Shown piece by piece: positions 12,936 to 33,717 of a stretch of 34,130 nt of DNA (position 1 is the stretch's first letter; the number at the start of each line of letters is the position of its first letter). Location of the stretch: positions 1 to 34,130 of the IMG/VR virus record IMGVR_UViG_3300025769_000426; one strand, given 5' to 3'. The DNA comes from a virus. The notes below the pieces were generated by a model, which searched no databases, was not told the DNA's origin, and saw only the letters and a list, made by a program, of their open reading frames with translations. A program made the position numbers and the translations under genes.

Positions 12936-13583
12936 TTATCCTTTCTTTGGGTAATCTTGTATTTTGTAATTTAGTTTATTCATGTAGTTTTTTCTCTCGG
13001 TTTTACTACCAAGAAAATAAATGTATCTGTGCTTCTGTGGCCGATCTACAACCTTGAACCTATCAGGGTTTGCCTGTCGATATGCCAAGGTGTATCTCTC
13101 TGTAATGGTCTTAGAGTGAAGAGGCTTGGTCGTTTCATAATCCATAAACATGTCATCAGATTCAATCGTCTCCTCAACCATTTGCCATTCTGTTCTCTTA
13201 TCACTCAAGCCTGTGTAAATGAAATTGGTTGCCTGATATACTTTGCCTAAGTGATCCTGACTAGTATCTGCGTAGCTAATAATTATCTTAGGTCTTGGAA
13301 GTAATTTGAATGATCCACCTATCAAATAACTTGCCTCATTCTTGCGATTGTATTTCAAGACCAACCTCTGCAACTCTATTACCTGATGCTTGTATTCCTT
13401 ACCACAAACTCCAATTGTCAATGAGTGACTTGGGGGTGATCCATATAGAATGACTCCGATCAACTCATCCCCATCAAACATCCCAAAATAATGGGATGCC
13501 GATGGAAATCGGTGAGCATAGTGGATATCGATCACAAATGGAGTTACATCCAATCGAGTGACTTCTCGGATCTTATAGTTCAT
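12936..13583 (-). CDS. mom-like: Mom-like DNA-modification protein (GNAT-fold family)
   Basis: This 215-aa protein shows the pattern of the phage Mu Mom family, which converts adenine in DNA to a carbamoylmethyl-type derivative that resists restriction. Visible motifs are YFGMFDGDELIGVILYGSPP (32-51), VIELQRLVLKYNRKNEASYL (68-87) and IISYADTSQDHLGKVYQATN (101-120), followed by FIYTG. The Ser-Tyr-Ala-Asp...His-x-Gly...Tyr-Gln-Ala-(T/A)-Asn signature is the clearest support. No Com-like translational activator is seen beside it. It overlaps the preceding 122-aa gene by 11 bases. The substrate base is inferred from the family, not shown. Confidence 0.75.
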   Translation of the reverse strand: MNYKIREVTRLDVTPFVIDIHYAHRFPSASHYFGMFDGDELIGVILYGSPPSHSLTIGVCGKEYKHQVIELQRLVLKYNRKNEASYLIGGSFKLLPRPKIIISYADTSQDHLGKVYQATNFIYTGLSDKRTEWQMVEETIESDDMFMDYETTKPLHSKTITERYTLAYRQANPDRFKVVDRPQKHRYIYFLGSKTERKNYMNKLNYKIQDYPKKG

Positions 13584-19892: not shown

Positions 19893-20825
19893 ATGTGGAT
19901 AGTCCCCAAAATGTTATCTCAATGTGTACAGGCTACGGAGGGATTGAGCTTGGACTCAGAGGAGCAGGCATGGATGTTAGAACAGTCTGTTACTTGGAGA
20001 TCGAAGTTTATGTCCAAGCTCTATTGGTTAAAGCGATGGAGGAAGGGAGACTATGTACAGCACCTCTGTGGTCTGATGTTAAAACCTTCCCATCATCAGA
20101 GTTTCGTGGAAAAATATGTGGCATCGTTGGAGGATATCCATGTCAGCCATTTAGCTCAGCCGGAAGGAGACAGGGAGAAGAAGACCCAAGGCACTTGTGG
20201 CCACACATCCGAAGACACATCAGGGCAATTAGACCTGTTTGGTGTTTCTTTGAGAATGTCCTCGGACATACCTCGATGGGGTTATGGAGAGTCCTGTCCG
20301 ATTTGGAAACAGAAGGTTACCGATGCGTATGGGGAGTATTCTCAGCGGAAGAAGTTGGCGCACCCCACCAAAGAAAAAGAGTCTTTATCTTGGCCATCTC
20401 CGAGGGCAGGAAATCCGGGGAGTCGGAAACCGGGGACAGGAGGGAAAGTGCTTTCGGAGGAAGCAAAGAGATGGGGGACACCACAGGCAAGCGACCATGT
20501 GGAGGGAGCAAGGACAAGGGTGGACAGTGGTCAGAAGTGTTTGGGAAGGGATTTGAATCGATTAAATTCCCATCAAGACCAAATGAACAACAATACGAAT
20601 GGGAAGCACCAAGAGTCGTGGGCAACACCGATAATGGGGGACGCACATCTCGCAAGCACTCCCGAAGCAGCGAAGAAAAGGTTGGAGGAGGGAAAGAAAA
20701 CACTAAGCAGACAGACAACGGGCAAGCTCAATCCGAATTGGGTGGAGCAATTGATGGGACTTCCCATCGGGTGGACAGACTTAGGCTCTTGGGGAACGGA
20801 GTCTGCCCACAAACAGCAGAATTAG
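19893..20825 (+). CDS. Overlapping reading frame, 310 aa, inside the C5-methyltransferase gene
   Basis: This frame is open for 310 codons across almost the whole methyltransferase gene. It starts with ATG two bases before the methyltransferase GTG (the sequence ATGTG holds both). The product is Trp/Pro/Gly/Lys-rich: LKRWRKGDYVQHLCGLMLKP near 46-65, repeated (S/A)WP(S/T)P and WGTPQASD elements, and an ending GKLNPNWVEQLMGLPIGWTD (about 278-297). From memory, the final motif recurs in phage proteins, some annotated as methyltransferase-associated, so this frame may be expressed. Alternatively the frame is merely kept open by constraint. If translated, a later ATG (such as 20010) could be the real start. 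Confidence 0.5.
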   Translation: MWIVPKMLSQCVQATEGLSLDSEEQAWMLEQSVTWRSKFMSKLYWLKRWRKGDYVQHLCGLMLKPSHHQSFVEKYVASLEDIHVSHLAQPEGDREKKTQGTCGHTSEDTSGQLDLFGVSLRMSSDIPRWGYGESCPIWKQKVTDAYGEYSQRKKLAHPTKEKESLSWPSPRAGNPGSRKPGTGGKVLSEEAKRWGTPQASDHVEGARTRVDSGQKCLGRDLNRLNSHQDQMNNNTNGKHQESWATPIMGDAHLASTPEAAKKRLEEGKKTLSRQTTGKLNPNWVEQLMGLPIGWTDLGSWGTESAHKQQN

Positions 20826-20866
20826 CATGGAGAACTTTATGGCAAAAACTTTCAGAGCAATCCTAA
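19895..20866 (+). CDS. DNA cytosine-C5 methyltransferase
   Basis: The 323-aa enzyme transfers a methyl group from S-adenosylmethionine to C5 of cytosine in a recognition sequence. Motif I is MCTGYGGIELGLRGAG (10-25), motif IV VGGYPCQPFSSAG (78-90, catalytic Cys83) and motif VI FFENV (118-122). Motif VIII is GAPHQRKRVFI (155-165), and motifs IX/X are VDRLRLLGNGVCPQTAELAW near the C-terminus. The region between about 170 and 290, where the target recognition domain lies, is low-complexity and Gly/Ser/Lys-rich, and it coincides with the well-patterned part of the overlapping frame. I take GTG at 19895 as start; an ATG at 19922 would begin right at motif I. No cognate restriction enzyme is evident, so a protective role is likely. 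Confidence 0.9.
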   Translation: MDSPQNVISMCTGYGGIELGLRGAGMDVRTVCYLEIEVYVQALLVKAMEEGRLCTAPLWSDVKTFPSSEFRGKICGIVGGYPCQPFSSAGRRQGEEDPRHLWPHIRRHIRAIRPVWCFFENVLGHTSMGLWRVLSDLETEGYRCVWGVFSAEEVGAPHQRKRVFILAISEGRKSGESETGDRRESAFGGSKEMGDTTGKRPCGGSKDKGGQWSEVFGKGFESIKFPSRPNEQQYEWEAPRVVGNTDNGGRTSRKHSRSSEEKVGGGKENTKQTDNGQAQSELGGAIDGTSHRVDRLRLLGNGVCPQTAELAWRTLWQKLSEQS

Positions 20867-21045
20867 TTTTTGGCCGCAAGGCGATAGGAAAACAAGGAGA
20901 CCTCCACGACACTCGGTGGGTTAGGATTGCTCTATTTTTATTATTAGTAGGTGGTTGTGCAAGAAACCCACATCCCGATCATGTAAAGGGTATTAGTTGC
21001 CCACAGGAAGGGCATGGTAAATGTCCTTTTGGATGCGATGACTGA
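20827..21045 (+). CDS. Putative small lipoprotein, 72 aa
   Basis: The frame has a hydrophobic stretch followed by a possible lipobox (RIALFLLLVGGCARNPHPDH, Cys near residue 44) and a Cys-rich end (CPQEGHGKCPFGC). The region before the hydrophobic part is long for a signal peptide and overlaps the methyltransferase end by 40 bases, so the true start is uncertain (ATG 20827 or 20839, neither with a strong ribosome site). A phage lipoprotein such as a lysis or exclusion factor is possible; this is not shown. Confidence 0.4.
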   Translation: MENFMAKTFRAILIFGRKAIGKQGDLHDTRWVRIALFLLLVGGCARNPHPDHVKGISCPQEGHGKCPFGCDD

Positions 21046-21820: not shown

Positions 21821-22255
21821 GTGAGTAGACCCATATACGAGACACAGGCAGACCTCGATAATGAGGCAAAGGTAAGAAAGTTCCTTTCAAGTGAATGGGA
21901 GTGTAGGTTTATTAAGCTGAATCCTGTTAAGTGGAAGGTAGATTTCTTGGTTCAGAAGGGTAATAAATACAGTTGGGCAGAACTTAAATGCCCGAAGATG
22001 AACTATGGTGACTTTCCGTTTATGATCAGCTACAAGAAGATCGAAGCGGCTAAGTTATTGCATGACACAAGCAAGAAGAAGTTTAATTTAATATACAAAT
22101 GCAAAGATTTGTTATGCTTTCACACTTGGGACTTTGATAAGGAGTATACTTTTGAGTATGGTGGACGTACTGTAAGCACACGTGACCCACAGGATATTGA
22201 GCCTGTATTCCTGATTGATCCAAAGGATTGCACGATAGTGGAGGGGTATGCATGA
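21821..22255 (+). CDS. PD-(D/E)XK-type nuclease-like protein, 144 aa (GTG start)
   Basis: The protein has a conserved Glu in DLDNEAKVRKFLS (Glu15), WKVDFLVQKG (38-47, Asp41) and SWAELKCPKM (51-60, Glu54-x-Lys56). A later YKKIEAAKLL helix is typical of PD-(D/E)XK folds. It may cleave or repair DNA, possibly the host's unmodified DNA; this is an inference from its neighbours (QueD-like, deoxyribosyltransferase-like, DpdA-like). The GTG start at 21821 sits in GTGAGT. Its end overlaps the QueD-like start (ATGA). Confidence 0.65.
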   Translation: MSRPIYETQADLDNEAKVRKFLSSEWECRFIKLNPVKWKVDFLVQKGNKYSWAELKCPKMNYGDFPFMISYKKIEAAKLLHDTSKKKFNLIYKCKDLLCFHTWDFDKEYTFEYGGRTVSTRDPQDIEPVFLIDPKDCTIVEGYA

Positions 22256-22608
22256 AAACTAAAGTAACAGAGAAGTTTACATTTGAGGCGGCTCATAGAA
22301 TAGAGGGCATTGGTAAAGAGAACTCAAGGATACATGGTCATTCGCATGAGGTATATGTTACTATAAGTGGAGAACCTGATGAGCGATATGGGTGGGTTAT
22401 TCCGCATGAAGAGTTTCAAACCAAGGCAGGGGCAATTGTTAAGCAGTTAGACCATACATATTTAAATGAGTTTATTGAGAATCCCACTGCGGAAATGATA
22501 GCTCGGCACTTGTGGTTAAAACTAATGGATAAAAAGTTCCCTGATCATATTACCCTCGAATCAGTCAAAGTCTGTAAGGTTGGTATGTGCGTGGAGGTGA
22601 ATGGATGA
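22252..22608 (+). CDS. queD-like: QueD / 6-pyruvoyl-tetrahydropterin synthase-like protein
   Basis: The 118-aa protein belongs to the PTPS/QueD (6-carboxy-tetrahydropterin synthase) family, which makes the second intermediate of the preQ0 7-deazaguanine pathway. Metal-binding histidines are visible: FEAAHRI (His15) and RIHGHSHEV (His28, His30). The Asp-His pair is in QLDHTYLN (Asp67, His68) and NPTAEMIARHLW follows. The catalytic Cys expected just before HGH is replaced by Asn24 or Ser25, and the conserved C-terminal Glu of the V-x-V-x-E-T motif is Lys109. I chose ATG 22252, with GGAGGGG upstream, over an earlier TTG. Activity is therefore uncertain. Confidence 0.8.
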   Translation: MKTKVTEKFTFEAAHRIEGIGKENSRIHGHSHEVYVTISGEPDERYGWVIPHEEFQTKAGAIVKQLDHTYLNEFIENPTAEMIARHLWLKLMDKKFPDHITLESVKVCKVGMCVEVNG

Positions 22609-23021
22609 TAGAGGCAAAATTAGTCTATTTAGCGGGACCAATCTATGAGCAAGATGACACTTGTATCCGGTGGAGAAAAGCTACGCACAAACTTTTAATG
22701 AAGAAGAATGTAATGTGCATGAAACCTACAGATGCAGATTACCGGGGCAGGGAGACAATTGCAGGAATACCCAAGCAGATTGTAGAGGGAGACAAGAAGA
22801 GCATTATGTATTGCGATACTATTCTAGCTAAGTGCGATCATCCTTCATATGGCACTGCGATGGAGATTTACTTCGCATGGAGTCTTCGTAAGCAAGTCAT
22901 CGTAGTTACAAATTCTTATAGTCCTTGGATTCGCTACCATGCTGATCACATCTTTCCAACATTAGAAGAAGCAATCGAAAATATAGAGTTCCCTGATTTT
23001 GATCCGGGCGTTTCAAAATGA
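22605..23021 (+). CDS. Nucleoside 2-deoxyribosyltransferase-like (DUF4406-type) protein
   Basis: The 138-aa protein opens with KLVYLAGPI (5-13), then has RWRKATHKLL, an Asp at 63 (EGDKKSIMYCD), and HPSYGTAMEIYFAWSL (79-94), the GT-x-x-E pattern whose Glu87 would be the nucleophile. The family cleaves or exchanges the N-glycosidic bond of nucleosides or nucleotides. Flanked by a QueD-like and a DpdA-like gene, it could prepare or recycle bases for DNA modification; this is inference. Start ATG 22605 overlaps the upstream stop and has GGAGGTG upstream; the last codon overlaps the next ATG (ATGA). Confidence 0.7.
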   Translation: MIEAKLVYLAGPIYEQDDTCIRWRKATHKLLMKKNVMCMKPTDADYRGRETIAGIPKQIVEGDKKSIMYCDTILAKCDHPSYGTAMEIYFAWSLRKQVIVVTNSYSPWIRYHADHIFPTLEEAIENIEFPDFDPGVSK

Positions 23022-23659
23022 TTGTGATGCCATCAAATAACGCTAAAGGCATTGTCCATTATTGGGCAGGCCAAGGTTATCCTGTTGGTTGGTTATTTAC
23101 TCCTGAGTCAGCAGTAAGGGAACCTGTGCCTTGGATACCTTATTCGATAGACAACGGCAGGTTTGCAGTTTGGTCATCAGGTAAAAAATGGAACGAACAT
23201 GATTTCCTAAAGATGCTTGATTACTATAACGAAACAATTCTCAAGCCTCGTTTTGTCAATGTACCCGATGAAGTTGGAGATGCTGATGAAACGAAAAGGA
23301 TGTGGGATAAGTGGTATCCAATACTTATCCAATCGTATGATCTTCCTTGGTCTTTCTGCGTACAAGATGGAATGACTCCCGCCGATGTTCCAACCGAAGC
23401 TGATGTAGTATTCGTTGGAGGTACTATGGAGTGGAAATTACGCAACCTAACTATGTGGACAGATGCATTTGAAAGAGTCCATGTAGGAGCAATTAATACC
23501 CTGAAGAATCTTCTGAGGTGCAAGGAATTAGGTGTCGAATCCTGTGATGGTACAGGATGGTTTCGTGGGCCTAAGATGACAGATACTCTTCATCGATATT
23601 TTCGCATTCAGGCGGGAGAGGAAAAACTACCCGAACAAATAGAACTATGCCTAAGATAA
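23018..23659 (+). CDS. dpdA-like: DpdA-like DNA guanine transglycosylase
   Basis: The 213-aa protein carries motifs of the TGT-related DpdA family, which exchanges guanine in DNA for a 7-deazaguanine. I see PYSIDNGRFA (41-50), FVNVPDEVGDADETKRMW (79-96), FCVQDGMTP (113-121), VFVGGTMEWKL (131-141), HVGAINTLKNL (155-165) and ESCDGTGW (174-181). The Asp-Gly-Thr-Gly and the Pro-Asp-x-(V)-Gly-Asp elements are the strongest links. It is much shorter than tRNA-TGT (about 370 aa) and lacks the usual Cys3-His zinc site, as expected for compact phage DpdA proteins. Its end overlaps the terL start by 13 bases. Confidence 0.75.
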   Translation: MIVMPSNNAKGIVHYWAGQGYPVGWLFTPESAVREPVPWIPYSIDNGRFAVWSSGKKWNEHDFLKMLDYYNETILKPRFVNVPDEVGDADETKRMWDKWYPILIQSYDLPWSFCVQDGMTPADVPTEADVVFVGGTMEWKLRNLTMWTDAFERVHVGAINTLKNLLRCKELGVESCDGTGWFRGPKMTDTLHRYFRIQAGEEKLPEQIELCLR

Positions 23660-25323
23660 CTTACGCAGATGAGGTAGATGCCCATTTTGGCATCCCTTGG
23701 TTGGAAGAGTTAGAAATCCGCAAGGGTGAGTTATCATGTGCTTTAAGTGATGAGCAGATTGATCAATTGCCACCTGAGAAGACAGCAATGCTGTCAGATT
23801 TAATTTTACATCAACCAAACTCTGAGAAGGAAGATCCTATACAATGGGGATGGACATTACCCGGTTGGCAAAGGGTGATGGATAATTGGGAGAATGACAA
23901 GATTCATGTTATTTTGGGCGGCAACAGATCGTCCAAGACTATGTTTGCAAGTCGTATGCTAGTTCATTTAGCTCAAACAATACCTGAAGCTGAAATACGA
24001 AGTATGCACGTAACAGAAGAAAGAAGTATATCAGATGCACAGAAATATATATGGCAGAACTTGCCAATGCGGTACAAGAGGGCAAAGAAAAAGAGTGAGA
24101 ATCATTCTCTACAATATAATCAAAAGAATGGATTTAACTCCTCTAAAGCAATATTTCCCCCCACCCAAGAAGGTGCTGAGAGGGGTAGTACGATTTATTT
24201 TAATAACTATCGGCAGTATCAAGCTGATCCTCAGATTTTTGAAGGTTGGTCTGCACACTGCATACACCTTGACGAAGAAGTACCTGAGGCAATTTTTAAT
24301 ACGCTCTTAGGTCGTACAGTTGACTATCATGGTCGACTAATTTTGACTTTCACGACACTTCAGGGCTGGACACCTTTGATCAATAGTTTGTTAAAGGGTG
24401 CTGAAACTGTAAAGACAAGATACTCTGAGATTATGGGTAGAGAATTACCTACTGAACAGATTTGTAAGAATTGGCCTAATTGTAGAATATATTACTTTTG
24501 GACAGAAGATTCTCCGTTTATTGATGGCAAAGAATTAATTAATACATATGCAAGACAACCACAGGAAGTTAAGCTTGCTAGATTATTCGGCATTCCAAGT
24601 AAAGCTGTAGAGGGTAGATTTCCAAAATTTACAAGAGAAACCAATGTTGTTCCACATGAAACAATACCTACTATTATTGATCCTACTATACCATCGACTA
24701 AGTATTTTGTTACTGACCCCGGTGGTTCTAAGCCTTGGGTAGCAATTTGGGCATCCGTATTGGAGGATGGTACTATCTATATTTATAGGGAGTTTCCTGA
24801 TACAAGTATGGGTGATTGGGCATTGCCTCATGTCAATGGAGTTGGTAAGAGTGTAGGCAAAGCGGGTCCTGCTCAAAGACCTCTTGGATGGGGCTACAGT
24901 CAGTATAAAGAGCATTTTGAGGCATTAGAAGGTGGGGAGCATATATTTGAGCGGATTGTTGACCCTCGTATGGGAGCCGCCACAGTCAGGGAGAAGGAAG
25001 GTGAGAGTAATATAATAAATACAATGGCTAATCTAGATTTTGTTATGAGACCTGCCCCCGGTGTTGAAATTGAGTCAGGCATTGCGGCCATAAACAATGC
25101 TTTATCTTGGGATGATACTGAACCAATGACCGAGCAGAATCGTCCTCAGTTGTTTGTGTCAGACAGGTGCGAGAATCTAATAAGCTGTATGCTAGAATAC
25201 AGTGGTCAAAGTAGAGCAGAACACTTTAAAGATTACATTGACACATTGAGATATTTAATGGTAAGTAAACCTGAACATGTTACAGACGCATCACTTGCTT
25301 GTACAGGTGGTGGTGGATATTGA
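23647..25323 (+). CDS. terL: Large terminase subunit
   Basis: The 558-aa protein is the packaging motor ATPase and nuclease. The ATPase has Walker A GGNRSSKT (91-98), Walker B CIHLDEE (205-211) and motif III LTFTTLQGW (233-241). The nuclease domain has FVTDPGGSKPWVAIW (354-368, Asp357), a middle Asp in ERIVDPRMGAA (about 440) and a final one in HFKDYIDTLRYLM. These form the RNase H-like metal site. It overlaps the end of the DpdA-like gene, so base modification and packaging are translationally coupled. The small subunit is not identified with confidence (see 18955-19434). Confidence 0.95.
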   Translation: MPKITYADEVDAHFGIPWLEELEIRKGELSCALSDEQIDQLPPEKTAMLSDLILHQPNSEKEDPIQWGWTLPGWQRVMDNWENDKIHVILGGNRSSKTMFASRMLVHLAQTIPEAEIRSMHVTEERSISDAQKYIWQNLPMRYKRAKKKSENHSLQYNQKNGFNSSKAIFPPTQEGAERGSTIYFNNYRQYQADPQIFEGWSAHCIHLDEEVPEAIFNTLLGRTVDYHGRLILTFTTLQGWTPLINSLLKGAETVKTRYSEIMGRELPTEQICKNWPNCRIYYFWTEDSPFIDGKELINTYARQPQEVKLARLFGIPSKAVEGRFPKFTRETNVVPHETIPTIIDPTIPSTKYFVTDPGGSKPWVAIWASVLEDGTIYIYREFPDTSMGDWALPHVNGVGKSVGKAGPAQRPLGWGYSQYKEHFEALEGGEHIFERIVDPRMGAATVREKEGESNIINTMANLDFVMRPAPGVEIESGIAAINNALSWDDTEPMTEQNRPQLFVSDRCENLISCMLEYSGQSRAEHFKDYIDTLRYLMVSKPEHVTDASLACTGGGGY

Positions 25324-25361
25324 TTGACTATTTTTGACTATGTGGATAATAGTATAACTTT

Positions 25362-27428
25362 ATGCAAAGCGCTTCTGATCCTGAATTACTTTATGTCAGC
25401 AAAGAACCTGACATTAATTACTTAGCAGAAACCTACCGAAAAACACAGGCAGATCTTGGTGAGTGGTTAGATCGTAGGCAACAGGATTATGATGTAAGGA
25501 ATTGCATGTGGTCAGGTAAATCTGACGACTTTAAGAAACACTCAAACCTTAGTTCCACAGGAGATGTATTCCCTTGGGATGGAGCGAGTGATCAGGAGAT
25601 ACGCATGGTTGATAATCAGATCAACAAGTGTGTCGCGATGGTTATGAATGCAGTAAGACAGGCACATATCGTTGCCACACCTGTTGAGTCAGGTGACATT
25701 GAGCGAGCCAATGTAATATCTATGTTTCTGCGTTGGATAATTAATACTAAAATGGAGGAATTTTATGATCAATTAGAACTTGGTCTTAATCATTTCTTTG
25801 AAAAAGGTTTAATGTGTCACTATGTGTGGTACGATTCACAGGATTTAAAACAACAACAAACAATCCGCTTGGATGAGATAGCACAGGCTTTACCTGAGAT
25901 AGCAGAAGCTATACAGGATGGAAGTATGGATAACGAGTTATCCTCAGCTATTAAAGATCAATTTAAAGTATCTAAGAGAAAAGCGAAAAGTATGCTTCGT
26001 GAGTTGCGTGAACAGGGTACAACCACAATACCTGTAACTAGACAAGTAGTAAATAGACCTAGACTAAAAGCACTTGCTCCTGACGAAGATGTTTTTTGGC
26101 CAAATTACACAATAGATCCACAGGAAGCACCTTATGTTTTTCATGTGCTTCATATGACTCCTGAGCAACTTCGCGCAAAGATTTCATCCGAGGGATGGGA
26201 TGAGGAGTTTGTTGAGAAGGCAATGGAGTTGGCACAAAATACACAAAGGGATGATACACTTTACAATGTTCGTCAGATGGATGAAGCTATTCGTGATGAT
26301 GATGAGACTATTAGAATAGTGTACTGTTATCAAAGATTGCTTGATGAAGATGATGTCCCCGGTATTTACTGCACAATATTGCATCCTGATGTACCTGATC
26401 TTTATGCCAAACATGAGTTATTGGATTATGCTCATGGCAAGTATCCATTCGTAATTACTAAGTACGAACAAACAAGTAAAAGACTTTATTCATCTAGATC
26501 AATTCCTGAGCTTGGAGAACCCTTGCAACAGGTAATGAAGATCGAGACTGACTCAATGATTGATCGTCAATCATTGGCAACGCTTCCACCTTTAGAGCAT
26601 CCATTAGGGCGGCCACCAACCAAATGGGGGCCGGGTGTAAGAGTTCCCTATCGGACACCGGGTGAGATTCGTTGGGCAGATACACCAAGGTTTGATGGTG
26701 GTAATGTTGAGGTTCGTAGGTACATCCAAGAAATGTTTGATAAATACTTTGGTAACTTTGCCCCCGGAGTTGATCAGGTTGAATCTCAGAATAAACAGCA
26801 AGCAGTTATCAATAAGGTGTTTAATCACCTTAAATATGTCTTTGACCAAGTGTGGACTTTGTATCAGCAATATGGGCCGGACGCTGAGTTTTTTCGAGTC
26901 ACAGGAATGCAAGATGTACAGAAGTTTAATAAAGGTAGAGCGGGCGAAAGATTTGACTTTTACTTACAGTTTGATGTGGCAACACAAGATCCTGAGCAGA
27001 TGTTGGAAAGAGTGAAAGCAATTGCAGAACTTGCTCCTGCTTTAGATAGATCAGGAACATTAGATACTGAGAGACTTCTTCAGCTTGCAGTAGGACAGAT
27101 AATGCCCGGTGCTTCCGAGAAGATTATGATCCCCAAGGAGACTGCATCACAGAAGGCAGTAGAGGAGGAGAGACAAACAATTGCTGAACTTGTGGCAGGT
27201 GTACCACCAAATGTAAGACCACAGGACTCACATGAGTTAAAGATGCAAGTATTTCAACAATGGTTATCACAACCTGACATACAACAAAAAGCACAACAAG
27301 ACCAAGCATTACAGGAGAGAATTCAGAATTATATGCAACAGCGTCAAATGCAGATTCAGCAGAAACAGAATGCGGCGATTGGACGACTAGGGGCGACTCC
27401 CACACAGTTTGGTGAAACTGCTAAGTAA
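25362..27428 (+). CDS. Portal protein
   Basis: This 688-aa protein forms the dodecameric gate through which DNA is packaged and to which the tail attaches. Support comes from size, position right after terL, the DYDVRNCMWSGKSDDFKKHS N-terminal region with WDGASDQEIRMVDNQINKC (about 68-90), and a long helical C-terminus. Gln/Glu-rich repeats (LSQPDIQQKAQQDQALQERI ...) lie near 630-680. These are typical of large podovirus portals. There is no Shine-Dalgarno site before ATG 25362; the 38-base gap contains TTGACT and GATAAT with a poor spacing of 15. Confidence 0.85.
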   Translation: MQSASDPELLYVSKEPDINYLAETYRKTQADLGEWLDRRQQDYDVRNCMWSGKSDDFKKHSNLSSTGDVFPWDGASDQEIRMVDNQINKCVAMVMNAVRQAHIVATPVESGDIERANVISMFLRWIINTKMEEFYDQLELGLNHFFEKGLMCHYVWYDSQDLKQQQTIRLDEIAQALPEIAEAIQDGSMDNELSSAIKDQFKVSKRKAKSMLRELREQGTTTIPVTRQVVNRPRLKALAPDEDVFWPNYTIDPQEAPYVFHVLHMTPEQLRAKISSEGWDEEFVEKAMELAQNTQRDDTLYNVRQMDEAIRDDDETIRIVYCYQRLLDEDDVPGIYCTILHPDVPDLYAKHELLDYAHGKYPFVITKYEQTSKRLYSSRSIPELGEPLQQVMKIETDSMIDRQSLATLPPLEHPLGRPPTKWGPGVRVPYRTPGEIRWADTPRFDGGNVEVRRYIQEMFDKYFGNFAPGVDQVESQNKQQAVINKVFNHLKYVFDQVWTLYQQYGPDAEFFRVTGMQDVQKFNKGRAGERFDFYLQFDVATQDPEQMLERVKAIAELAPALDRSGTLDTERLLQLAVGQIMPGASEKIMIPKETASQKAVEEERQTIAELVAGVPPNVRPQDSHELKMQVFQQWLSQPDIQQKAQQDQALQERIQNYMQQRQMQIQQKQNAAIGRLGATPTQFGETAK

Positions 27429-27450
27429 GCAGTATAGAAAGAAAAACATC

Positions 27451-27558
27451 ATGCCAATGGTAGGTAAGAAAAAATTCGATTACACTAAAAAGGGTAAAGC
27501 GAACGCAAAAGCGTACGCAAAGATGATAGGTAAGAAAGTCAAAAAGAAGAAAAAATGA
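27451..27558 (+). CDS. Tiny Lys-rich protein, 35 aa
   Basis: MPMVGKKKFDYTKKGKANAK followed by AYAKMIGKKVKKKKK: half the residues are Lys. It is coupled to the next gene by ATGA overlap and follows portal by 22 bases. It is probably nucleic-acid binding through charge alone. Function unknown. Confidence 0.6.
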   Translation: MPMVGKKKFDYTKKGKANAKAYAKMIGKKVKKKKK

Positions 27559-27803
27559 GTATCACTTATCGTGGTGAACGTTTTAGTGGTTACAATAAGC
27601 CTAAGAGGACACCGGGTAAATCTAAAAAGTTTGCTGTTCTTGCTAAGGAGAACGATAAAGTCCGTCTTGTCAGATTCGGTGATCCGAACATGTCCATTAA
27701 GAAAAATATACCTGCTAGACGAGCTTCCTTCAGAGCAAGACATAAATGCGATGAGAAAAAGTCTAAATTAACCGCAGGTTATTGGAGTTGTAAAAAATGG
27801 TAG
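27555..27803 (+). CDS. Conserved-looking small basic protein, 82 aa
   Basis: MSITYRGERFSGYNKPKRTP then KKFAVLAKENDKVRLVRFGD and a patterned C-terminus FRARHKCDEKKSKLTAGYWSCKKW. The 'FGDPNM.IKK..P.RR.SFRARH.C......AGYWSCK.W' pattern is one I associate with small proteins in portal-proximal positions of aquatic phages; no function is known to me. The two Cys and the His could bind a metal. ATGA overlap on the left; the next ATG lies within its last codons. Confidence 0.7.
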   Translation: MSITYRGERFSGYNKPKRTPGKSKKFAVLAKENDKVRLVRFGDPNMSIKKNIPARRASFRARHKCDEKKSKLTAGYWSCKKW

Positions 27804-27958
27804 CAAAGAAGAAAAAACCAAAACCCACAAATCCGGCTCTTTATTCAAGGGTTAAATCAGAAGCTAAAAAAAAGTTTGATGTTTATCCATCTGCTTACGC
27901 AAATGCGTGGTTAGTTAAAACCTATAAAAAAAGAGGTGGTAGGTATAAAAACGCATGA
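27797..27958 (+). CDS. Small basic protein, 53 aa (DUF5872-like pattern)
   Basis: MVAKKKKPKPTNPALYSRVK then a SEAKKKFDVYPSAYANAWLV helix and a YKKRGGRYKNA end. The 'P.LY.RV..EAK.KFDVYPSAYANAWLVK.YK.RGG.Y' pattern matches, by memory, the DUF5872 type found in viruses and phages. Function unknown. It overlaps the previous gene by 7 bases and the next by 4. Confidence 0.65.
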   Translation: MVAKKKKPKPTNPALYSRVKSEAKKKFDVYPSAYANAWLVKTYKKRGGRYKNA

Positions 27959-28233
27959 GCCTTAAAAAATGGTTTGGTAAAGGCTCAGAAGGAGATTGGG
28001 TAGACATTGGTGCGCCTAAGAAAAAGGGCAAGTACCAACCTTGTGGGCGAAAATCTACTAAAACAAGTAAAAGAAAGTACCCAAAGTGTGTGCCACGCTC
28101 AAAAGCAAAAAGTATGACTGCGGCACAAAGAAAAAGCGCAGTAGCTAGAAAAAGGGCAAAACCACAAGGAGTTGGAGGCAAGCCTACCAATGTAAGGACT
28201 ATTGTTAGAAAAAGAAAAACAAAGAAGAAATGA
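27955..28233 (+). CDS. Small basic protein, 92 aa
   Basis: MSLKKWFGKGSEGDWVDIGA then PKKKGKYQPCGRKSTKTSKR, KYPKCVPRSKAKSM and a tail of RKR/KKK. The 'W.DIGAPKK.GKY..CGR....YPKCVP..KA..MT..Q...AV.RKR' pattern looks conserved in phages (possibly DUF6321); the two or three cysteines could bind zinc. ATGA overlaps couple it to both neighbours. Together with the three preceding genes it makes a run of four Lys/Arg-rich proteins. Confidence 0.65.
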   Translation: MSLKKWFGKGSEGDWVDIGAPKKKGKYQPCGRKSTKTSKRKYPKCVPRSKAKSMTAAQRKSAVARKRAKPQGVGGKPTNVRTIVRKRKTKKK

Positions 28234-28469
28234 GTGCAATTGGTAAAACAGATCACGAAATTGACCATGAAGACGCAATCAGAGCGATGTCCGCTCTCAA
28301 AAACGATCCTAACTTCAAGAAGTATATCGAAGTGCGTGAGAGTATGCGTGAAGAAACGATTAGGGCGTTGCAGACTCCTGAGAACATCTCAGACACAAAC
28401 AGGCACTTTTACATCACAGGTAAGCTAGAAGCTATTGACGAGGAGTTGGATGTACTATATAAACTTTAG
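28230..28469 (+). CDS. Small helical hypothetical protein, 79 aa
   Basis: MSAIGKTDHEIDHEDAIRAM... is a mostly helical, slightly acidic protein ending EAIDEELDVLYKL. Position between the basic proteins and scaffold suggests a minor head role, for example an accessory to the portal, which is inference. Last gene before a strong terminator. Confidence 0.55.
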   Translation: MSAIGKTDHEIDHEDAIRAMSALKNDPNFKKYIEVRESMREETIRALQTPENISDTNRHFYITGKLEAIDEELDVLYKL

Positions 28470-28493
28470 GTAGATTATGTGTAATACCCATAG

Positions 28494-28529
28494 CCCTCTA
28501 CGTTTTTGGGGTAACGTAGGGGGTTTTTT
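28494..28529 (+). terminator. Rho-independent terminator
   Basis: A 10-bp stem CCCTCTACGT (28494-28503) pairs with ACGTAGGGGG (28514-28523, one G-T pair), with a 10-base loop and a run of six T. It ends the portal-small-protein operon. Confidence 0.85.
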
Positions 28530-28619
28530 GTGCATAGATATAAATATGTAAATAAGTCTTGCAATATTTACATCAAATAAATAGCTTAATATCTACTAGG
28601 CTAATTGCCTTGAGTATTT

Positions 28620-29708
28620 ATGGACGAAATTACCAAAGAGGTTGACTCAGAATCCTCCGAAAATTCTGTGGAAATAGAAAAGCCTGTTGATGGGAATGTA
28701 TCCGTTGCGGAGTTTGCAGATCAGTTATTGAAAAACAAACAAAGAAACGATCCTGAACCTGAAGCAAGTACCGAAGAGACGGAACAGTCCACTGAAGAAG
28801 CTGTGGATTCAACAGAAGTCACTGAGGATACACAGTCTGCTGAAGATGCGGAAGACGAGGATGATTCCTCGCCCCCTCCACAGACTTCAGATGTTCTTTC
28901 AAAGTTTAATATTGATCTAGATAGCTTATCAGAGGACGAAAGTCGTGATCTAGCTAAGGCTTTAAATGCAAGTGCTGTTAAGAGATTCGGTACTCTTACT
29001 CGTCAAAAACGGGAATTAGAGGCACAGAATGAGGTATTGCAACAACAAGCAAAGCAAGCTGAAGAAGGGTCTACTCCAAGTTACTTAAAAGATAATGCTT
29101 TATCTGATATTACTGATGAGCAATCTCTAGTTGAGAAAGTTGAGCAACTTAATGACTTGATTGAGTGGACAGAAGATAGCATGGACAACGAAATTCAATA
29201 CGATGACCAAGGTAATGAATTTATTGCCACAAATGGTGATCAGAAGTTCACAAAAGCTGACCTAAAGAAATTCAGAGCAGATGCAAAACGTTTGTTACGC
29301 AAAGATGTTCCTGCGAGAGCTACATGGTTATCAGAAAGAAAGCAAGCTGACGAAATGGCTAAGGATACATTTCAGTTTCTAAGTGATCCTGATAGTGAAG
29401 ATTACAAGTTGTTCAATCAACTGAATGATAATCCGCTTTATCAACCATTTAAGAAGCTACTTCCGAATGCTAATTATGCAATGGGTCTTATGATTGAGGG
29501 GTATAAAGCAATTGAGGGTAGAAAGAAAAATACTGCTAAACCACCACCTAAACCTAAAGCACCTGTAGCATCAACAGAAGCAGGTACATCAAGACCTAAA
29601 TCTAATCAATCAATGAAACTGAAAGCTGTGGAGGCGGCGAAGAAGCAATATGAATCTTCAGGCTCAATGGCAGACTACCAACAATATTTAAAAATAAAAA
29701 AATCTTAG
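28620..29708 (+). CDS. Scaffolding protein
   Basis: The 362-aa protein has a very acidic Glu/Asp/Ser/Thr-rich N-terminal third (about 1-85, e.g. EPEASTEETEQSTEEAVDST). A coiled-coil region follows (about 115-145, RQKRELEAQNEVLQQQAKQA), and the C-terminus is basic (Lys/Pro-rich linker, then MKLKAVEAAKKQYESSG). This layout and the position just upstream of the major capsid gene match head scaffolds that assemble with capsid protein and leave before DNA packaging. It starts after a 90-base gap containing A/T-rich sequence; the Shine-Dalgarno site is weak. Confidence 0.8.
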   Translation: MDEITKEVDSESSENSVEIEKPVDGNVSVAEFADQLLKNKQRNDPEPEASTEETEQSTEEAVDSTEVTEDTQSAEDAEDEDDSSPPPQTSDVLSKFNIDLDSLSEDESRDLAKALNASAVKRFGTLTRQKRELEAQNEVLQQQAKQAEEGSTPSYLKDNALSDITDEQSLVEKVEQLNDLIEWTEDSMDNEIQYDDQGNEFIATNGDQKFTKADLKKFRADAKRLLRKDVPARATWLSERKQADEMAKDTFQFLSDPDSEDYKLFNQLNDNPLYQPFKKLLPNANYAMGLMIEGYKAIEGRKKNTAKPPPKPKAPVASTEAGTSRPKSNQSMKLKAVEAAKKQYESSGSMADYQQYLKIKKS

Positions 29709-29721
29709 GAGGAAATTAATT

Positions 29722-30690
29722 ATGGCACAAGCCGCAAGTTATAACACATCCGGCAACCGGGAGGACTTAACTGACGTCCTTACAATTATGGAGCCGGAAT
29801 CAACACCATTCACAAGTATGGCACAGAAAGCCACCGCAAGTGGTACTTTCTTTGAAGTCCAAGTGGATGATCTTAGTACACCAAGCTTCGATGGAGTAAA
29901 TGAAGGTGAGGACGTTACTGCTTTTGATAACAAAGCTGTAAATCGCGCTCGTATTGGAAATTATGTTCAGAAATTTCGCAGAAGTTTTGCAGTAAGTGAC
30001 ATCCAAGAGATTGTTGCTACAGCGGGCGTCACATCTGAGTTCGCCAATGCCGAAGCAAAAGCAGTAAGAGAATTAAAGCGGGATGTCGAAGCAGCTGTAT
30101 GTTCAGGTCAAGATCGTCAAGCTGAAGCCGGAGCCGGTGCCCCATACAAAACTCGTGGAATGTTTAAGTTCCTCGGTCTTGGTGGTCAACCATCCGACAT
30201 TCCTGCTTTTGCTCAGAATGTTGCTAACGACACAACTGCTACGCAAACCGAAACAACCTTCAATAGCGTTCTCCAAGAACTTTATGAAGCTAACGGAATG
30301 CCCGGTGGTCAACTTACTCTTATCGCCGGTCCTACTCTCAAAAAGGAAATCAGTGACTTTGCTCGTCAAGAAGGTTCTACAACCGCCTTGTCTTTCCAAG
30401 TTACTCAACCTGCTGAGAGTAAGAAAATAACCTTATCAGTCAATTTTTACGAAGGAGATTTCGGAAATGTTGCAATAGTACCTAGCGTGTATTTAAACCG
30501 CACATCGGGTAGCGACACAATTGATGGTGATGCAGGTCTTCTTATCGACCCTGAGTACGTAGCAATCCATACTTTGAAAGCTGAATCTAATTCTGAGCTT
30601 GAAAATCAAGGTGGTGGCCGGCGTGGTTTCTGTGATATAATTGCGGGTCTCGCAGTTCACAGTCCAAAAGCTCATGGTTACTTTAACTAA
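29722..30690 (+). CDS. Major capsid protein, DUF5309 (SU10-type)
   Basis: The 322-aa protein shows the DUF5309/SU10 major capsid pattern. Visible are GNREDLTDVLTIMEPESTPF (11-30), FFEVQVDDLSTPSFDGVNEG (43-62), GNYVQKFRRSFAVSDIQEIV (78-97), then AKAVRELKRDVEAAV (112-126) and TRGMFKFLGLGG. These correspond to the N-arm and E-loop/spine helix of an HK97-like fold in that family. A strong AGGAGG lies 10 bases before the ATG, consistent with very high expression. Scaffold precedes it and the putative decoration protein follows. Confidence 0.85.
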   Translation: MAQAASYNTSGNREDLTDVLTIMEPESTPFTSMAQKATASGTFFEVQVDDLSTPSFDGVNEGEDVTAFDNKAVNRARIGNYVQKFRRSFAVSDIQEIVATAGVTSEFANAEAKAVRELKRDVEAAVCSGQDRQAEAGAGAPYKTRGMFKFLGLGGQPSDIPAFAQNVANDTTATQTETTFNSVLQELYEANGMPGGQLTLIAGPTLKKEISDFARQEGSTTALSFQVTQPAESKKITLSVNFYEGDFGNVAIVPSVYLNRTSGSDTIDGDAGLLIDPEYVAIHTLKAESNSELENQGGGRRGFCDIIAGLAVHSPKAHGYFN

Positions 30691-30713
30691 TATTAATTAG
30701 GAGAACATAAGAC

Positions 30714-31142
30714 ATGGCAGAATTAAGTAACAATGAAGCAGGTCGCGGTTTTACTCACGTATACACTGCTACCTATGAAGACCTACAAACAATTGGAAAT
30801 GGTGGTCAAGCTACCATCGCAACCATCCCTGCGGGTGGTGCTATTGAATGTGTAGGAGTTTATGAATCAGAAGCGTTCGCTGGTACAACCTCTTTGGTTA
30901 TCGATGTAGGAACTTCTTCAGGAGACCCTGATGAGTTCATCGATGCTCTTGATGTTGATGCTATGACTGCTCCTGTTTTCAATACAGGGGATGCCTTCAC
31001 AGGTAATCAATCACAACCTGTAGGTGGAACAAGTAGTGCTACATCTGTACTTTTAGAAGTCACAGATGCCGCTATTGCATCAGCTACAGCCGGAAAGATT
31101 GTTATTGGTCTACGTATTGTTGACCTCGGACAATTTGCTTAA
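30714..31142 (+). CDS. Putative capsid decoration protein, 142 aa
   Basis: The protein is beta-rich and Thr/Gly/Ala-rich with no Lys after the N-terminus except near the end (GKIVIGLRIVDLGQ). SDs are strong (TTAGGAG), matching the capsid gene. It follows the major capsid gene by 24 bases and is followed by a terminator, the common place for a capsid-stabilising protein. It could instead be a minor tail or head component. Confidence 0.55.
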   Translation: MAELSNNEAGRGFTHVYTATYEDLQTIGNGGQATIATIPAGGAIECVGVYESEAFAGTTSLVIDVGTSSGDPDEFIDALDVDAMTAPVFNTGDAFTGNQSQPVGGTSSATSVLLEVTDAAIASATAGKIVIGLRIVDLGQFA

Positions 31143-31158
31143 CAGCATTTAGGAATAT

Positions 31159-31191
31159 GGGAGTGACCTATAGAACGGGTCACTCCCTTTT
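31159..31191 (+). terminator. Rho-independent terminator
   Basis: A perfect 10-bp stem GGGAGTGACC (31159-31168) pairs with GGTCACTCCC (31178-31187) across a 9-base loop and is followed by TTTT. It ends the capsid operon. Confidence 0.85.
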
Positions 31192-31206
31192 CCAACCCAA
31201 TTTATT

Positions 31207-31518
31207 ATGGCAAACATACTTCTACCAAAATGGAGCGGAGGCAATGGTTCACAGTTTATGAAAAACTTGGATCGTTATTTACGATATGAAGTGGATTTAG
31301 AAAAGCATGAAGCATCTTTGCGCGAGCAGATGGTGCGCAAGGAAAATAAAGAAATGGGTGTGGCTAAGACAGATGGTCTAGGTCAATTAAAGGGATCAAT
31401 TCCTGCGAGAGAATACTTTCGTTGGCATCAATCGCATCGTGGTTGTTGGAATGATAAATCATTTGTAAGAGAATTTTTTAGAGACAACCCATCGTTTAGA
31501 GCTAAGACTTTAGCATGA
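31207..31518 (+). CDS. Hypothetical protein, 103 aa (virion-block)
   Basis: MANILLPKWSGGNGSQFMKN... is a soluble protein with a charged helix (DLEKHEASLREQMVRKENKE) and an aromatic basic region (REYFRWHQSHRGCWNDKSFV). Not recognised. There is no Shine-Dalgarno site; the start is ccaatttattATGGC, the same A/T-rich context found at three other virion genes. Its stop overlaps the head-tail adaptor start (ATGA). Confidence 0.5.
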   Translation: MANILLPKWSGGNGSQFMKNLDRYLRYEVDLEKHEASLREQMVRKENKEMGVAKTDGLGQLKGSIPAREYFRWHQSHRGCWNDKSFVREFFRDNPSFRAKTLA

Positions 31519-32354
31519 GACAAGTACCAATAAGCACAATGCTTTCCAATCTTAAACACACGATTGGGGTAGATAGCTTATTGTCGGATGAGCAAAATGC
31601 GGCCATCCGCAGTTTTAATCGCTTTGGTAGATTGGCATGGGAACGCACAAGGTGGCCTGATACTATTCGCTTAGAGCAGAAGACACCCGACTTACAAGTA
31701 CGCAATGTAAATGTAGGTAATGGTGGATCAGGTTATACATCCGCTCCTACAGTTTCATTCACAGGAGGTGGAGGCTCAGGAGCAACTGCTACTGCAACAA
31801 TTGACTCAGAAGGTCGAGTGAATGGTGTGGCAGTAACTGCACATGGCACAGGATATACCTCTGCGCCAAATGTTTCACTTATCTCAGCAAGTGGAAGTGG
31901 TGCTACAGCATCATCAACTGTGATGAATGTTCTAGAGTTTAGTGATACTATAGGAGAGGTTTTACGTGTTACTAATAATGATCCCTATGATACAGGATTT
32001 GCAGATGAGGTGGCATATCGTGTAGAATTTTCTTCAAGCTCTGATACAGATTTTGGTCAAATTACATTGGTTGATCGTTCAAGCACTAAGCCTGTATTTG
32101 TTTTATATCGTGCCCCATTTACTGATTATACATCTACTAGTGTAGACTTCCCTTATGTATTCAGTGAGTATGCGGTTTACGGAGCATATGGGGATTGGTT
32201 AACCGCAGATGGTCAAATGGAAAAAGGACAGGTAGCATTTCAACAGGCTGAATCACTCATAACAATGGAACTAGATAAGCTAGAGCGTCAGCAAGGACAG
32301 CAAAACTTTATACAATTCGTCACATACGGAACAACAATTCAAACATCAATTTAA
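31515..32354 (+). CDS. Head-tail adaptor / tail tubular protein A-like, with inserted beta repeats
   Basis: The 279-aa protein begins with a helical region typical of gp11-like adaptors (AAIRSFNRFGRLAWERTRWP, 29-48). The C-terminal half has FSEYAVYGAYGDWLTADGQM and then a helical tail with LERQQGQQNF. Between them lies a low-complexity beta insert (about 62-137) with two repeats, GSGYTSAPTVSFTGGGGSGA (71-90) and GTGYTSAPNVSLISASGSGA (111-130). Such an adaptor would sit between portal and tail nozzle; the insert could be surface-exposed. The adaptor assignment is from pattern and gene order. Confidence 0.55.
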   Translation: MRQVPISTMLSNLKHTIGVDSLLSDEQNAAIRSFNRFGRLAWERTRWPDTIRLEQKTPDLQVRNVNVGNGGSGYTSAPTVSFTGGGGSGATATATIDSEGRVNGVAVTAHGTGYTSAPNVSLISASGSGATASSTVMNVLEFSDTIGEVLRVTNNDPYDTGFADEVAYRVEFSSSSDTDFGQITLVDRSSTKPVFVLYRAPFTDYTSTSVDFPYVFSEYAVYGAYGDWLTADGQMEKGQVAFQQAESLITMELDKLERQQGQQNFIQFVTYGTTIQTSI

Positions 32355-32356
32355 TT

Positions 32357-32611
32357 ATGGCAAACGAATACAGAGGATTAGGACTTAACGGGGGTAAATA
32401 TATCAACGACACTGCAACTCACACAGGAGACTTTTTTGCAATTGTTTGCACAGAGGATACAGTTTTTGCGAGTATTACTTCTAATGTAGAAAACATCTCT
32501 GCTTTATGTACAGGTGGAGACGCAACCACATTACCAACAAATACCGCGATTTATGGACGCACTACTTCATTTCAACTTACGAGTGGTGCAGTTTTAGCAT
32601 ACAAGATGTAA
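32357..32611 (+). CDS. Small virion-like beta protein, 84 aa
   Basis: MANEYRGLGLNGGKYINDTA... is beta-rich, ends LTSGAVLAYKM, and resembles small tail or head surface proteins that precede fibre genes. No Shine-Dalgarno; start context tttaattATGGC. Unrecognised family. Confidence 0.5.
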   Translation: MANEYRGLGLNGGKYINDTATHTGDFFAIVCTEDTVFASITSNVENISALCTGGDATTLPTNTAIYGRTTSFQLTSGAVLAYKM

Positions 32612-32612
32612 A

Positions 32613-32765
32613 ATGCTGTCTCTTGATCTAAATGTAGGAGTAGCAAGACCCTTCACAGGGAGTGGTATCCCATCAGGTGGTGATGGAGTACCCGCCAACG
32701 CACTCCTGACGGAGAACAATGAACCCATGCTTACGGAAGCCGGAGATAATATAGTCTATGAGTGA
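32613..32765 (+). CDS. Small hypothetical protein, 50 aa
   Basis: MLSLDLNVGVARPFTGSGIP and then NALLTENNEPMLTEAGDNIV. The repeat 'LLTE...MLTEAGD' resembles short tandem elements in small proteins ahead of phage fibre genes. It starts 1 base after the preceding stop and its last codons overlap the fibre start by 8 bases. Function unknown. Confidence 0.5.
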   Translation: MLSLDLNVGVARPFTGSGIPSGGDGVPANALLTENNEPMLTEAGDNIVYE

Positions 32766-33717
32766 TTTACAAAATTTAACACCCGCAAATACCTACAAGG
32801 GACTGCTCCAAGTAGGTGATTACACCAACGGAGTGGACTCTACAGTTAAGGCTGTTTTAGACGGAGAGGGCACAACATCCGCACTCGCCATTGGCACAAC
32901 GAAGGTTGGCATAGGGACAACCTCCCCGACCCAAGAGTTGGATGTCAACGGAAATGTAGTCGCAGATGAATACGCCTTGGATCAAACAGGCACAAGCAGT
33001 TCAGCGGTGGCAATTCATGCACCTGCCACCAATGAGCTTGCGATCCGCACAAATTCGACTGAAGCAATACGCATCGACTCTTCCGGGCAGGTTGGTATTG
33101 GTACTACGAATCCCATATATCCTTTGGATGTTTTTGGTTTTGGTAAAGCTATAGGTATCACAAGTACACACGCTGATGGTACACGAATAACTCACGCATC
33201 TTTATCTAATGACTCGAGCGGTTATGGTCGGATAGATGCATATAATAATGTAGGTAACTCTGTCGTAAGGATACTTTCAAACGGAAATTCTTATTTCAAC
33301 GGCGGCAATGTCGGTGTTGGCACTGCGAGTCCTAATACACTTTTAGATGTAGATGGAGTATCTACATTTAGAGTTCCTACAGGCGGTAGTACTATCATTT
33401 CATACGCAGTAGGAGATACCACATCGGTACAGCAACCGGGTTTAGTATTAAGAACAAATGAAACCGAAGACGCGGATCGTGTTAAACTTAACTCTGACGG
33501 AGACTCTTTTTTTAATGGCGGTAAGTTGGGTATTGGCACAATCGCCCCTTCCGCCCCCCTCGAAGTAGCTTCTACAACAGGTGGTGTGATTATGCCGAGG
33601 ATGACTACTACGCAGATGAATGCCATCAGTAGTCCGACTGACGGAGAAATGATTTACAACACTACTGAGAATAAATTTTACGGACGAGCCAACGGAGCTT
33701 GGACAGCACTTCACTAA
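32758..33717 (+). CDS. Tail fibre / head-surface protein with G-I-G-T repeats
   Basis: The 319-aa protein contains four copies of a beta-turn repeat of the type VGIGTTSPTQELDVNG (near 50-65, 112-127, 185-200 and 257-271). This repeat is common in phage fibre shafts. It ends in a common fibre tail segment (MPRMTTTQMNAISSPTDGEM ... FYGRANGAWTALH). Probably a trimeric fibre. The start overlaps the 50-aa gene by 8 bases. Confidence 0.75.
   Translation: MSDLQNLTPANTYKGLLQVGDYTNGVDSTVKAVLDGEGTTSALAIGTTKVGIGTTSPTQELDVNGNVVADEYALDQTGTSSSAVAIHAPATNELAIRTNSTEAIRIDSSGQVGIGTTNPIYPLDVFGFGKAIGITSTHADGTRITHASLSNDSSGYGRIDAYNNVGNSVVRILSNGNSYFNGGNVGVGTASPNTLLDVDGVSTFRVPTGGSTIISYAVGDTTSVQQPGLVLRTNETEDADRVKLNSDGDSFFNGGKLGIGTIAPSAPLEVASTTGGVIMPRMTTTQMNAISSPTDGEMIYNTTENKFYGRANGAWTALH

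Follow-up and report, generated by a model that had tools for sequence, protein, structure and literature searches.

Three consecutive genes of the window (the whole stretch of DNA analysed, a complete virus record of 34,130 bases) form a horizontally transferable unit whose borders coincide with gene borders. They encode a QueD/PTPS-like protein, here called QueD', an NDT-like (nucleoside deoxyribosyltransferase-like) protein and a compact DpdA. Judged from its sequences, the trio very probably swaps guanine in the phage DNA for a modified base. The reading we favor, and consider fairly probable, is a minimal, mobile, post-replicative DNA-guanine base-exchange cassette in which DpdA inserts a host-derived deazaguanine-type base that the NDT-like protein and QueD' supply or tailor. 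The cassette is probably a variant of the guanine modification known from phages, new in its probably neofunctionalised QueD paralogue and its NDT partner. Deazaguanine bases protect phage DNA against restriction enzymes; the cassette would provide such protection in a very small, mobile form.

Table 1. Positions of the cassette genes, their neighbours and the mobile unit in the window.
Feature	Position	Strand	Remarks
PDDEXK_14 nuclease-like gene	21821..22255	+	neighbour directly upstream; stop within ATGA at 22252
QueD/PTPS-like gene (QueD')	22252..22608	+	118 aa from ATG; PF01242 82 bits, cut-off 22.4
NDT-like gene	22605..23021	+	138 aa; PF05014 44 bits, curated cut-off 28.8
compact DpdA (TGT family)	23018..23659	+	213 aa; phrog_15826
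terL	23647..25323	+	ATG inside the DpdA gene; neighbour, outside the cassette
mobile unit	22252..23644	+	exact span matched by the DNA of unrelated phages L005, L006, L013, L014

ORF analysis places the three genes on the plus strand, and the start of each shares an ATGA with the preceding stop. Purifying selection acts on all three (dN/dS 0.03-0.18 where computable, mostly 0.03-0.09), and their order is kept in dozens of viral contigs. The ATGA-overlapped genes of the original prediction are therefore real, and the trio does run into the start of terL. A portal-like protein and an SU10-like major capsid protein are encoded among the genes further downstream. In L010 and L015 QueD' and NDT are about 165 bases apart, with no ATGA overlap there.

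The order QueD'-NDT-DpdA is found in those viral relatives that are >56% identical to the window NDT and have enough flanking sequence. The cassette is found at different sites: upstream of terL, in the interval from terL to the portal gene or, where terL is only about 30% identical, several kilobases away from it. The four unrelated phages in Table 1 are 92-93% similar to the window at the nucleotide level over exactly the mobile unit, and elsewhere the similarity amounts to at most about 100 bases. In another branch the similarity spans 22252-23005, that is, QueD' and NDT only, and DpdA is of a different type, about 245 aa long and alignable to the DpdA of phage 9g. The slot is the same, and the type of DpdA is swapped while the QueD'-NDT pair stays. 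L012 joins QueD' from one branch to NDT and DpdA from another.

The product of the third gene matches no Pfam family, only PHROG 15826, which is of unknown function. Its nearest phage relatives are 29-36% identical, and some of these (30-33%) are annotated as DpdA-like tRNA-guanine transglycosylases. A profile search against PDB sequences found no TGT, so the assignment required fold and profile-profile comparison. When the structure model (14 relatives used, mean pLDDT 75) is compared with the PDB by VIA-align, TGTs take all of the top 50 places by score, with Z 11.6-12.1 and 189-196 aligned residues, so the TIM-barrel of the TGT fold is present in the model. Foldseek matches are weak (best TGT E 0.036) and include TGT and the DNA preQ0 insertase 7ui4 (DpdA). 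Profile-profile alignment of the compact family with the 9g/Erebus-type DpdAs (95%, E 1.8e-8) pairs both catalytic aspartates; these residues, Asp45 and Asp177, are invariant and align with the conserved DSGGF-type and D-S/T-type motifs of the 9g-type proteins. Predicted fold, profile and catalytic residues thus place the protein in the TGT/DpdA family, as originally proposed.

The small size of this DpdA, which had been thought unusual, is shared with other phages that have a compact DpdA beside QueC, QueD or QueE. Distant compact relatives outside the cassette adjoin one of these three genes in many viral contigs, so that the family has a link to deazaguanine metabolism that does not depend on the window. 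Two phages, L176 (Arthrobacter phage Sonali) and L004 (Vibrio phage R29Z), each have a compact DpdA and a separate DpdA of roughly 300 aa, so the two types can coexist.

These features suggest that DpdA very likely catalyses the TGT reaction with guanine in DNA, the DNA substrate being presumed. The compact protein would excise guanine from the phage DNA by way of a covalent intermediate of the TGT type, with Asp177 as the probable nucleophile acting together with Asp45, and would then insert a base that is presumably of the deazaguanine type. This base or its precursor would come from the queuosine pathway of the host, since the phage is without FolE, QueE and QueC. The original prediction had noted that these genes were missing, and a scan of the complete record bears this out. 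Neither FolE, QueC nor a radical SAM/QueE protein was found in the window or in any of the 21 QueD'-NDT-DpdA records searched, which are up to 37 kb long and possibly fragments.

QueD' retains the architecture of its family. Its model resembles QueD and PTPS structures (Z 15-17, with Z 15 to QueD), the closest relatives of its sequence among known structures are QueDs, and His15, His28, His30, Asp67 and His68, which make up the Zn His triad and the Asp-His pair, are invariant. Two residues of the active site are lost. In the CxxxHGH motif, the window protein has Asn in place of the catalytic Cys, whose position is four residues ahead of HGH, and its relatives have Asn, Tyr or Leu there; the loss is also visible when the window protein is aligned to E. 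coli QueD. The pterin-anchoring Glu of V-x-V-x-E is Lys throughout the cassette family. In the divergent NDT lineages L116 and L118/L120 the QueD is likewise Cys-less and Arg replaces the Glu; with these lineages included, the Cys position holds Asn, Tyr, Leu, Ala or Thr. Both residues are lost in every cassette copy.

Other QueDs, taken by the same scan from loci that have QueC, QueE, FolE or DpdA and no cassette, keep the Cys wherever HGH is readable and the Glu wherever the C-terminus is readable, the latter being unreadable in a few open frames. All QueDs found beside QueC or QueE and readable at both positions keep both residues, as do 15 of the 15 QueD frames beside a compact DpdA outside the cassette, including that of L226, where NDT and QueE are present. 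At most one PTPS gene was found in each record searched. Glu23 was considered as a substitute for the lost Cys, as in Plasmodium PTPS, but some cassette copies have Lys or Gly at position 23, and the idea was given up for this reason.

QueD' is unlikely to make CPH4, because no cassette relative has kept the catalytic Cys or the pterin Glu. It probably acts on a different substrate, as a neofunctionalised QueD paralogue, since the metal site is kept but the residues for CPH4 synthesis are gone. The first gene therefore does not appear to be the preQ0-pathway QueD that the original prediction made of it. In a model that follows that prediction for QueD, an ordinary QueD would relieve a bottleneck in the preQ0 supply of the host, DpdA would insert preQ0, and NDT would be a passenger from nucleotide metabolism. 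The PTPS score far above its cut-off, the kinship to QueD structures and the invariant metal ligands fit an ordinary QueD, but the uniform loss of Cys and Glu, which all readable QueDs beside QueC or QueE have kept, does not, and the adjacency of NDT and DpdA described below contradicts the passenger role; we regard this model as improbable. In the scheme that we prefer, QueD' would be a Zn-dependent QueD paralogue that no longer serves CPH4 synthesis and instead modifies the base or its precursor. DpdL is reportedly a CDG decarboxylase and might be a QueD paralogue; no mention of DpdL in this sense was found in the phage literature searched. QueD' defines a QueD subfamily with an altered active site, whose genes current annotation labels as pathway enzymes.

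The NDT-like protein is linked to DpdA well beyond the cassette. The surroundings of NDT were scored for 53 distinct sequences flanked on each side by at least 700 bases, and a DpdA within 1.5 kb counted as a neighbour. A DpdA was that close in 49 of the 53 (30 with a compact DpdA, 19 with another type); of the other four, one lies inside a QueC-QueE-QueD cluster and three are without either. The adjacency spans several NDT clusters that are <60% identical to one another, and the distant members had been picked by sequence pattern, not by context. As a rough background, two DpdA searches match 24 and 251 of 50,697 phage records. The converse does not hold, as many DpdA phages are without NDT (251 matching records for one DpdA type against 10 for NDT). 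Among cultured phages, Erebus, ZHS and RHph_X3_2 have NDT in or near deazaguanine gene clusters, and in HRTV-29 NDT and an annotated DpdA are about 9 kb apart.

In L046, L126, MTATph1 and PhiCh1 the DpdA profiles gave no match, an absence that is not firm because the same search missed the annotated DpdA of HRTV-29. L046, a record of 42.6 kb in which these profiles detected no DpdA, has two NDT genes. A scan with the NDT of PhiCh1 gave one relative only, the viral L174, whose 18.5 kb record contains two QueC-family matches, one of them about 1 kb from NDT.

NDT is a constant neighbour of DpdA and not an incidental gene. The possibility that it merely fills in for absent synthesis genes was dropped, because phages with fuller pathways (Erebus, RHph_X3_2 and L226) carry it too. 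No earlier report linking NDT to deazaguanine-type DNA modification was found in the literature searched, and as far as that literature goes its partnership with DpdA, across several divergent NDT lineages, is newly noticed.

The PF05014 family includes both nucleoside transferases and nucleotide hydrolases. The nucleophile Glu87 of the GTxME motif is invariant, and the Ser of PSxGTxME, which aligns to the corresponding motif of DNPH1, is present in all 57 sequences with a recognised motif. In DNPH1/Rcl the Ser of that motif contacts the 5'-phosphate. Because the invariant Ser matches this phosphate-contacting residue, the NDT-like protein most likely cleaves a nucleoside monophosphate to release its base; it would be a DNPH1/Rcl-like N-glycosidase of 5'-monophosphates and free the base for DpdA. 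It has in common with NDT and with the 2'-deoxynucleoside 5'-phosphate N-hydrolase DNPH1 (Rcl) a YLAGPI start, the GTxME Glu and the PS Ser; unlike these enzymes, it belongs to a distinct phage family that is linked to DpdA and not to nucleotide salvage.

A pre-replicative route, in which NDT joins deoxyribose to a free deazaguanine that is then phosphorylated and polymerised while DpdA is auxiliary, agrees with the NDT family membership and with the remark that 2'-deoxyribosyltransferases might have gone undetected in deazaguanine phages (Hutinet 2019, PMC6884629). Such a route is quite unlikely: NDT nearly always has DpdA alongside, the cassette is without a kinase gene, and the invariant Ser suits nucleotide hydrolases better than nucleoside transferases. 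The 2019 remark can now be tested directly on the cassette NDT.

Translational coupling and the constant gene order would also suit NDT and/or QueD' as non-catalytic partners that hold or activate a small DpdA, as would the absence from the compact TGT of parts of the full-length enzymes and the hosting of two DpdA types in one slot. This role is unlikely, given that the nucleophile Glu and phosphate Ser of NDT and the metal ligands of QueD' are kept throughout and that compact DpdA is found without NDT as well. There is a similarly small chance that NDT and QueD' make a guanine analogue without FolE, QueD, QueE and QueC, NDT freeing a purine base from a nucleotide and the Zn site of QueD' altering it, so that DpdA would insert an unreported DNA base not derived from preQ0.

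The base-exchange cassette that we favor resembles the phage 7-deazaguanine systems (9g, CAjan, Rosebush and nt-1, with DpdA or DpdA2; PMC6884629) in its TGT-family DpdA with conserved catalytic Asp, in its clustering with queuosine-pathway genes, and in the alignment of the DpdA of one cassette branch to that of 9g. Unlike those systems, it has no FolE, QueE or QueC, its QueD paralogue is without the Cys and Glu, and it has a constant NDT-like partner. With the DpdA-only phages (such as Salmonella phage 7-11 and mycobacteriophages with compact DpdA-like proteins) it shares the presumed use of a host-made base, but it has QueD' and NDT in addition and is transferred as a unit. In bacteria, the QueC-like cluster 4 with PfkB-NDT neighbours (PMC13329287) also has an NDT domain adjoining a deazaguanine-family gene; there, the NDT is fused to a kinase and the reported partner is a QueC-like protein and not DpdA.

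A Mom-like gene (12939-13583, minus strand; PF25680, 130 bits; phrog_1384) was found in the window only, among the 16 cassette records searched. Mom is the adenine-modifying family of phage Mu, and because such a gene is also present, two bases may be modified in the window phage. A C5-cytosine methyltransferase gene is located at 19895-20866 on the plus strand and is overlapped by a second long frame (19893-20825). The short stretch 20724-20937, which covers the end of the methyltransferase gene and a little beyond it, is 70-100% identical (mostly ≥86%) in otherwise diverged phages, and is also conserved in phages that otherwise share only the cassette. L071, a contig from another sample, is 100% identical to the window over 23353-33659, and the virus is therefore present in more than one data set.
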